Origin: a virus
Reading direction: 5' to 3' (one strand)
DNA: 27,638 nt
Virus record (IMG/VR): IMGVR_UViG_3300031977_001163
Location: 1-27,638 of that record
Part shown: piece after piece, positions 26,007 through 27,144 of the stretch
Position numbering within the stretch: the stretch's first letter is position 1
Layout: the number at the start of each line of letters is the position of its first letter
Program-made: the position numbers and the translations under genes
The notes under the pieces: model-generated
Databases searched by the model: none
Told to the model about the DNA's origin: nothing
What the model saw: the letters and a program-made list of their open reading frames with translations, nothing else

Positions 26007-26020
26007 CCCTTGGTAAGGGT
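26007..26020 (+). other. Candidate attP core: copy of a tRNA-Thr anticodon arm
   Basis: CCCTTGGTAAGGGT, an anticodon stem-loop identical, as I remember it, to that of ordinary bacterial tRNA-Thr(GGT), stands alone 20 bp before the phage tRNA and in the same orientation. The flanks do not continue as a tRNA. The phage's own tRNA has a different stem (CATCC/GGATG). Such an isolated host-like segment beside an integrase is what a crossover core should look like. Confidence 0.55.
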
Positions 26021-26040
26021 ACTGTGGCACGAACAAAAAT

Positions 26041-26115
26041 GCTGTGTTAGCTCAGTGGTAGAGCGCATCCTTGGTAAGGATGAGGTCGCGAGTTCAATCC
26101 TCGCACACAGCACCA
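26041..26115 (+). tRNA. tRNA-Thr(GGT) with encoded CCA
   Basis: The complete cloverleaf can be drawn: acceptor GCTGTGT/ACACAGC, D-arm GCTC/GAGC, anticodon arm CATCC-TTGGTAA-GGATG with anticodon GGT, variable loop AGGTC, T-arm GCGAG-TTCAATC-CTCGC, discriminator A at 26112 and CCA at 26113-26115. It reads ACC/ACT codons. It sits between a candidate att core and the 3' end of the convergent integrase gene. Confidence 0.95.
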
Positions 26116-26145
26116 TTTCTCCCTTGTCACAAACGCGTGTGTCAC

Positions 26146-27144
26146 TTATGTGCCACGCACACCTAGAAGACCTATCGTATCCTCAAGGTGTGATGGCGCA
26201 AGATGACTGTAACGCATCACCATTGACAGTGAACTGTGGCCAAGCAAGTCAGCCACCGCTCTTAGCGAAGCGCCCCTCTGCACCAGTAACGATGCAAAGG
26301 TATGGCGCATGTCGTGCGGCCTAAAGTCTTCAATGGCTGCACGTCTCGTGGCTCTGTAGAAATAGTCATAGAAACCATCTCTATGCCACTGACCCCCTGC
26401 GGGGTTCGGGAAGACCAGTCCTGTACCTCGCCCCCCCATGGCTCTGGTGACGTCGTCGACCAACGGCACGGCTCTGAACCGCGTCTTGCCTGACGTCCCC
26501 TTGCGCGTCCCAAAAGTGGCCTTGCCATCTATGATGTCAGACCACTCCACGCGGAACGCCTCGCCAAGTCTCGCCCCTGTAAAAAACAGGAACGTGACCA
26601 ATCCTTCTATTTCTGGCTCGCAACATTCGATGAGCGTATCTCTCTCATCCTCGTCAAGCCAACGTGTGCGGCTGTCGTCGACCTTCGGCTTCTTCAACCG
26701 CAAGTCTGGCGCATCCAGTCCCATGTCCTTGGCATGGTTCAGCATGGCCATAATGCTGTTGATCTCCCGCTTCACGGTCGACGCTTTGTTACCACGACTA
26801 TTCACCCACAACATAACATCAGCAACAGTCAGCGCCTCCAGACGTGTCTTGCCATGGGCCGCATCAAAGCGCCCCATGATATTTACATCTGTCTCCCCGA
26901 CCTTGCTTGGCCTATCCAAGAACAGCCTAATCGCCTGTCCCACAGACACACTGGAAGTCGCGCCCTTTTCAAGACGTCCATCCAACGCATCCTTGAGTAT
27001 CCGCCCCATGGCTTCTTGCGCATGTGGCTTCATACTCCGACCAAACCCAGTGCTTTTACGGACGCGTAGTCGACCACCAGTTGGCGTGACCACAGTCCCA
27101 CTTACTTGCCAAACATCATTACGCAGCGTCAGTCGTAGTGTCAT
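26146..27144 (-). CDS. int: Tyrosine recombinase (phage integrase)
   Basis: 332 aa. I prefer ATG 27144 (GGAG upstream) over longer in-frame starts lying within the preceding gene. An N-terminal arm/core-binding region (about 60-150, VSVGQAIRLFLDRP) precedes the catalytic domain: Arg192 (TGARLGEAF), Lys in FGTRKGTSGK, His277-x-x-Arg280 (PHDMRHTFA), His303 (LGHSS) and nucleophile Tyr312 (MRYSHL). All catalytic residues are present, so the enzyme should be active. The gene ends 31 bp from a tRNA-Thr gene, with GTGTCA repeats beyond. Overlaps the LuxR-type gene by 26 nt. Confidence 0.93.
   Translation of the reverse strand: MTLRLTLRNDVWQVSGTVVTPTGGRLRVRKSTGFGRSMKPHAQEAMGRILKDALDGRLEKGATSSVSVGQAIRLFLDRPSKVGETDVNIMGRFDAAHGKTRLEALTVADVMLWVNSRGNKASTVKREINSIMAMLNHAKDMGLDAPDLRLKKPKVDDSRTRWLDEDERDTLIECCEPEIEGLVTFLFFTGARLGEAFRVEWSDIIDGKATFGTRKGTSGKTRFRAVPLVDDVTRAMGGRGTGLVFPNPAGGQWHRDGFYDYFYRATRRAAIEDFRPHDMRHTFASLLVQRGASLRAVADLLGHSSLSMVMRYSHLAPSHLEDTIGLLGVRGT

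Follow-up and report, generated by a model that had tools for sequence, protein, structure and literature searches.

Phages that integrate at the anticodon loop of a tRNA gene classically carry the 3′ half of the tRNA in attP, and the gene is rebuilt from the host 5′ half and the phage 3′ half. A different arrangement, tRNA-dependent lysogeny, was defined in 2024 for actinobacteriophages, in experiments on mycobacteria that used mutants and integration plasmids (PMC10865867), having been suspected earlier for the Lactobacillus prophage Lj965 (from PMC10865867). In the actinobacteriophages Fionnbharth, Gabriela, Mollymur and Gaia a tyrosine integrase acts on an attB within a host tRNA gene through a core of 8-17 bp that does not rebuild the gene, and the phage supplies a tRNA of the same isotype; relatives whose cores are long restore the tRNA and do without a tRNA gene of their own (PMC10865867). 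Breakage in the middle of a tRNA combined with a replacement tRNA has also been noted among alphaproteobacteria: one report describes Sinorhizobium meliloti prophages like Mesorhizobium phage vB_MloP_Lo5R7ANS, which break tRNA-Leu(UAG) and bring a replacement tRNA-Leu(UAG), an isotype and a phage group different from those considered here (PMC11476347). Closest to the present locus is Roseobacter phage CRP-810 (OR671924), which, according to the available sections of its description, attacks roseobacters of the CHUG lineage, is the founding member of a family that includes 251 relatives, and integrates in the middle of a host tRNA-Thr via 13 bp of identity next to a phage tRNA-Thr, as shown by junction reads and by PCR, which confirmed attL and attR (PMC11288001). 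Those sections report the site and the phage tRNA-Thr separately, and draw no connection from this tRNA to the gene that is broken (PMC11288001); nor did the open-access literature that we searched contain a description of a tRNA inside attP, or of the CRP-810 tRNA tied to the broken host gene.

The stretch analyzed here (the window) is the 27,638-base IMG/VR virus record IMGVR_UViG_3300031977_001163, which covers 27.6 kb as part of the genome of a temperate phage akin to CRP-810; relatives reach 57-58 kb. Its primase-polymerase is 74.6% identical to that of CRP-810 over 99% of its length, the integrases are 56% identical, and the gene order LuxR regulator – integrase – tRNA-Thr is common to both: on the primase-polymerase and this order the phage belongs to the CRP-810-type family, as defined by the core genes and gene order of CRP-810. 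ARAGORN recognizes one tRNA in the window, and a tRNA-Thr(GGT) is likewise the sole tRNA of CRP-810. The integrase, convergent with the tRNA and starting at an ATG at 27144, belongs to the tyrosine family found in tRNA-dependent lysogeny and is intact, as a preliminary description made from the sequence alone had stated: its R...HxxR...H...Y residues are all present. The end of the LuxR/GerE gene overlaps the integrase start, which suggests coupled expression. Elsewhere the fragment is dominated by a single open reading frame of 3214 codons (4262-13906).

Table 1. Features of the integration region (window coordinates).
Feature	Position	Strand	Remarks
Left arm-type integrase site pair (candidate) GTGCCAGACGTGTGTCA	25889..25905	+	GTGYCA repeats; centre 116 bp left of core
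attP core CCCTTGGTAAGGGT	26007..26020	+	Anticodon loop and inner stem of tRNA-Thr(GGT); same core in CRP-810
Spacer, core to tRNA	26021..26040	+	20 bp, too short for a whole promoter; 13-90 bp in other members
Complete tRNA-Thr(GGT), CCA encoded	26041..26115	+	ARAGORN; arm CATCC-TTGGTAA-GGATG, 2 mismatches to core
Right arm-type site pair (candidate) GTGTCACTTATGTGCCA	26139..26155	+	Centre 134 bp right of core, past the tRNA
Tyrosine integrase	26146..27144 (GTG start alternative at 27219)	-	Pfam PF00589 Phage_integrase E=5e-26; PHROG integrase E=9e-62
LuxR/GerE-type regulator	27119..27577	-	Directly upstream of integrase gene; Pfam GerE E=1e-13; same order in CRP-810

The preliminary description had drawn attention to an anticodon-arm 14-mer, CCCTTGGTAAGGGT, 20 bp before the tRNA and in the same orientation. 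It lies exactly there, as the only exact copy in the window (shuffled windows hold 0.06 matches on average), and when up to two mismatches are allowed the sole other match is the tRNA's own arm, TCCTTGGTAAGGAT (26068-26081), which had rightly been said to differ. The resemblance to the usual bacterial tRNA-Thr(GGT) arm, as first stated, is correct: CCCTTGGTAAGGG is present in 51 of 82 alphaproteobacterial tRNA-Thr(GGT) genes sampled, and the full 14-mer in 26 of these 82. When 15 phages are aligned on the core, information content is about 1.1-2 bits at each of the 13 positions of CCCTTGGTAAGGG and mostly below 1 bit in the flanks; the loop TTGGTAA was itself a criterion by which sequences entered this alignment, the outer CCC and GGG were not. 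The match extends over 14 bp and the sequence departs from the tRNA immediately past the core. A rebuilt tRNA is thus out of reach of so short a segment, as had been argued: attP holds neither the 3′ nor the 5′ part of a tRNA by which classical elements, among them L027, L028 and other sisters of the window phage, restore their target.

Among 78 alphaproteobacterial genomes with a match to a strict tRNA-Thr(GGT) pattern (37 more, without a match, stand outside this count), 74 have one copy and 4 have two. Given a single copy, loss of the gene should need replacement, and we infer that the gene is essential. On these grounds, and on those given below, we consider it highly probable that the window carries an integration module of the CRP-810 type, one that acts by tRNA-dependent lysogeny and has its replacement tRNA built into attP. 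Here the integrase would pair the core at 26007-26020 (13-14 bp) with the anticodon arm of identical sequence in the host's only tRNA-Thr(GGT) gene, the site at which integration has been shown for CRP-810, and, the core being too short to rebuild the gene, the host tRNA would be cut into halves. Because core and phage tRNA have the same orientation, one junction would then, as follows from the sequence, start with the promoter and 5′ half of the host gene and continue through the core and 20 bp of spacer into the whole phage tRNA-Thr(GGT). From here the host promoter most likely reads through the dead half, RNase P would release the phage tRNA, and the latter would provide the lost decoding of ACC and ACU.

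This geometry can be compared with CRP-810, for which primers have been published. Of the two phage primers, one maps within the integrase gene facing the tRNA and core, the other beyond the core facing back, and both host primers are absent from the phage stretch. The primer positions imply that the integrase-side junction contains the phage tRNA, with the integrase on one side of it and flanking host DNA on the other, and the shared orientation of core and tRNA implies that the host part at this junction is the promoter plus 5′ half. The phage tRNA forms a cloverleaf both alone and within a modelled junction transcript (host half, spacer and tRNA), and as a tRNA-Thr(GGT) it is of the same isotype as the disrupted gene. 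The central proposal of the preliminary description was that integration breaks the host gene and sets the phage tRNA behind the host promoter and 5′ half, where it assumes the lost function: breakage and placement gain support from the mid-tRNA-Thr integration of CRP-810, the primers, the common anticodon and the single-copy host gene, while takeover by the phage tRNA, driven by the host promoter, is proposed from this geometry and by analogy with tRNA-dependent lysogeny in mycobacteriophages (PMC10865867).

The region around the core is enriched in GTGYCA repeats, with 9 in 361 bp compared to 0.48 expected. A left pair with a 5-bp spacer occupies the same place in the window, CRP-810 and L022, and a right pair at +133/+134 is found also in CRP-810, L020, L021, L022, L025 and L137. 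These pairs look like the arm-type sites of a lambda-like attP. With the candidate right pair located beyond the tRNA, the tRNA itself would sit inside attP, between the core and the right arm sites. A further relative, L024, with an integrase more than 90% identical to that of CRP-810, has lost both core and tRNA and retains a single GTGYCA pair, as would be left by deletion between the left and right arm pairs.

If the tRNA is part of attP then a lysogen would have only the host promoter and host 5′ half ahead of it. The phage DNA between core and tRNA measures merely 13-26 bp in nine loci and so cannot hold a sigma-70 promoter; no sigma-70-like site was predicted between 25600 and 26200 on either strand. 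It is unlikely, if still deserving of some weight, that tRNA-dependent lysogeny is the right reading while the tRNA is transcribed from a phage promoter, its proximity to the core being incidental. In mycobacteriophage Fionnbharth a 136-bp phage fragment does drive the tRNA (PMC10865867), and one subgroup of the present family has its tRNA far from the core; the narrow spacers of the nine loci argue against this alternative, as does the fact that integration severs everything left of the core from the tRNA. Transcription from the captured host promoter is the reading we prefer for loci with the window's layout. A stronger version, in which the module is a self-contained promoter-capture cassette – the tRNA part of attP and wired by integration to the host tRNA promoter, attP hard to keep without the tRNA, the altered arm a non-target, and the layout separately arisen in Firmicutes – seems to us evenly balanced between true and false.

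If phage and host tRNAs offered the same arm, the phage copy could itself serve as a target. The sequence CCCTTGGTAAGGG is found in none of 18 distinct phage tRNAs, whereas 51 of the 82 host genes contain it (Fisher 4e-7, kinship not corrected for). In these tRNAs the 7-base anticodon loop is unaltered and the stem is changed: TCC/GGA is present in most, and the others show CGC, TCG, GCT or TCA, each opposite a matching partner (with a G-T pair in CGC/GTG). The altered stem fits selection against the phage tRNA acting as attB; with the loop kept and a stem pair changed, the phage copy is probably not a target for the integrase.

To place the window among its relatives, integrase relatives were drawn from IMG/VR, grouped into clusters at 90% integrase identity, and their surroundings classified. 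The comparison of related phages suggested at the outset bears out the order of core and tRNA: both recur in relatives with integrases 91-99% identical, as well as in CRP-810 at 56%. In 12 clusters of the survey a short core is accompanied, 13-90 bp away, by a whole tRNA-Thr(GGT). Two more place a whole tRNA-Thr(GGT) upstream of the integrase, some 1.8 kb ahead of the point where the integrase ends, and have their core across the integrase from it. In seven clusters the 3′ half of tRNA-Thr(GGT) is joined to the core and a complete tRNA is absent. A tRNA-Ser 3′ part is found in four clusters, a tRNA-Gly 5′ half in one, and 15 showed no recognizable att site near the integrase. Thus, at the tRNA-Thr core (21 clusters) one integrase family is accompanied by either a complete tRNA-Thr(GGT) (14 clusters) or a 3′ half (7 clusters), never by both or neither. 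On the integrase tree the two states are interleaved, with at least three changes between them; the tree affords only 1-3 independent contrasts of tRNA versus 3′ half, too few for a significance test.

That the tRNA serves lytic growth only, by supplying codons or by replacing host tRNAs destroyed by defence nucleases, and stands next to attP by chance, is in our judgement very improbable: many phage tRNAs have been credited with such roles as a proposal (see the works cited in PMC10865867 and PMC11476347), but here the tRNA is the sole one of the window and of CRP-810, its anticodon is that of the broken gene, and across the family a complete tRNA is found exactly where the 3′ half is absent.

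Several members of the survey depart from the tRNA-dependent layout of the window. In L152, L160, L159, L163 and L164 a complete tRNA-Thr(GGT) lies upstream, and the downstream core is flipped in orientation relative to the integrase; with the tRNA so far from the core, use of the host promoter is not required in every member. Integrase relatives L119-L123, L150 and L173 carry a tRNA-Ser 3′ part instead; on the tree L150 is sister to L137, whose tRNA-Thr is complete, so the target tRNA can switch between near relatives. L007 (2160-2222), like L032, has behind an integrase of 38% identity the 5′ half of tRNA-Gly(GCC), which extends as far as the anticodon arm and points away from the integrase. 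In L007, phage genes on both sides rule out a prophage end with host DNA, and leave an attP carrying the tRNA-Gly(GCC) 5′ half, through which integration would restore the host tRNA with its 5′ half and promoter supplied by the phage. The tRNA-Arg next to a distant integrase in L036/L037 looks like a case of ordinary 3′-end integration.

Lysogens were sought in bacterial genomes, as had been proposed. A search of 385 alphaproteobacterial genomes (integrase profile, E 1e-60) returned none of the window phage group and is uninformative; wider genome scans gave no lysogen of this group, and a scan with the integrase alone no relatives, among the matches listed. A pattern scan of 84,980 species, asking for a Thr anticodon arm followed by a D-arm within 17-39 bp, found at least 12 places. 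One of these, in the Ruminococcaceae bacterium MAG UBA5396, consists of a tRNA-Thr 5′ half, CCTTGGTAAGG, about 31 bp, a complete tRNA-Thr(GGT) and a tyrosine integrase that converges on it, followed in turn by an HTH gene: judged by its arrangement, the type of junction predicted above exists in an actual genome. No second tRNA-Thr(GGT) was found in the UBA5396 assembly. The opposite junction of the element was sought in this MAG and not found, the single extra copy of CCTTGGTAAGG falling within a protein gene. The integrase is of another subfamily (Phage_int_SAM_3), and the layout therefore probably arose separately.

The principle – tRNA-dependent lysogeny – is already known, and the idea of the preliminary description, an independent rediscovery of it, was essentially right. 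New, within the open-access literature searched, are the phage family, the tRNA isotype and the built-in layout, which probably captures the host promoter; to these can be added the either-or distribution of complete tRNA-Thr and 3′ half at the Thr core, the consistently altered arm of the phage tRNAs, and the occurrence of the predicted junction in a Ruminococcaceae genome. In the actinobacteriophages the tRNA lies elsewhere and has its own promoter (shown for Fionnbharth), whereas here a tRNA-Thr(GGT), in alphaproteobacterial marine phages, stands 13-90 bp from the core, apparently inside attP, and its arm is changed from the core in every distinct copy. The classical 3′-half phages share with the window phage the host gene and the core position (sisters L027, L028, L124, L127, L130, L132, L134, L135 and L141), but the window phage does not rebuild the tRNA. 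On this reading tRNA-dependent lysogeny would take in a marine phage family of global distribution, which offers a natural experiment: one integrase family has three remedies for a broken tRNA, namely a 3′ half, a complete adjacent tRNA and a complete distant tRNA. Replacement of this kind would swap a host tRNA gene for a foreign one. With CRP-810 and its host in culture, the prediction is directly testable.

Four further places from the pattern scan are in the sphingomonads L049, L051, L053 and L056, where a tRNA-Thr gene follows CCTTGGTAAGG at a distance of a few tens of bp; these are not junctions of the kind described, as the tRNA-Thr that follows has another anticodon (CGT or TGT) and the GGT gene is intact elsewhere. 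That the 14-mer of the window is no attP core, and is a remnant of tRNA duplication or a chance hairpin beside the phage tRNA, is scarcely credible: in several bacteria an intact tRNA-Thr is indeed closely preceded by a partial copy with no obvious element, but the phage core is conserved where its flanks diverge, repeat pairs flank it at fixed distances, and integration of CRP-810 through the core sequence has been shown (PMC11288001). The partial copies of tRNA-Thr(GGT) in L048, L052, L054, L055 and L058, directly upstream of the intact gene, comprise the anticodon arm and sometimes a 5′ half with an altered D-loop (in tandem in L055), and are possibly scars of replacement or local duplications.
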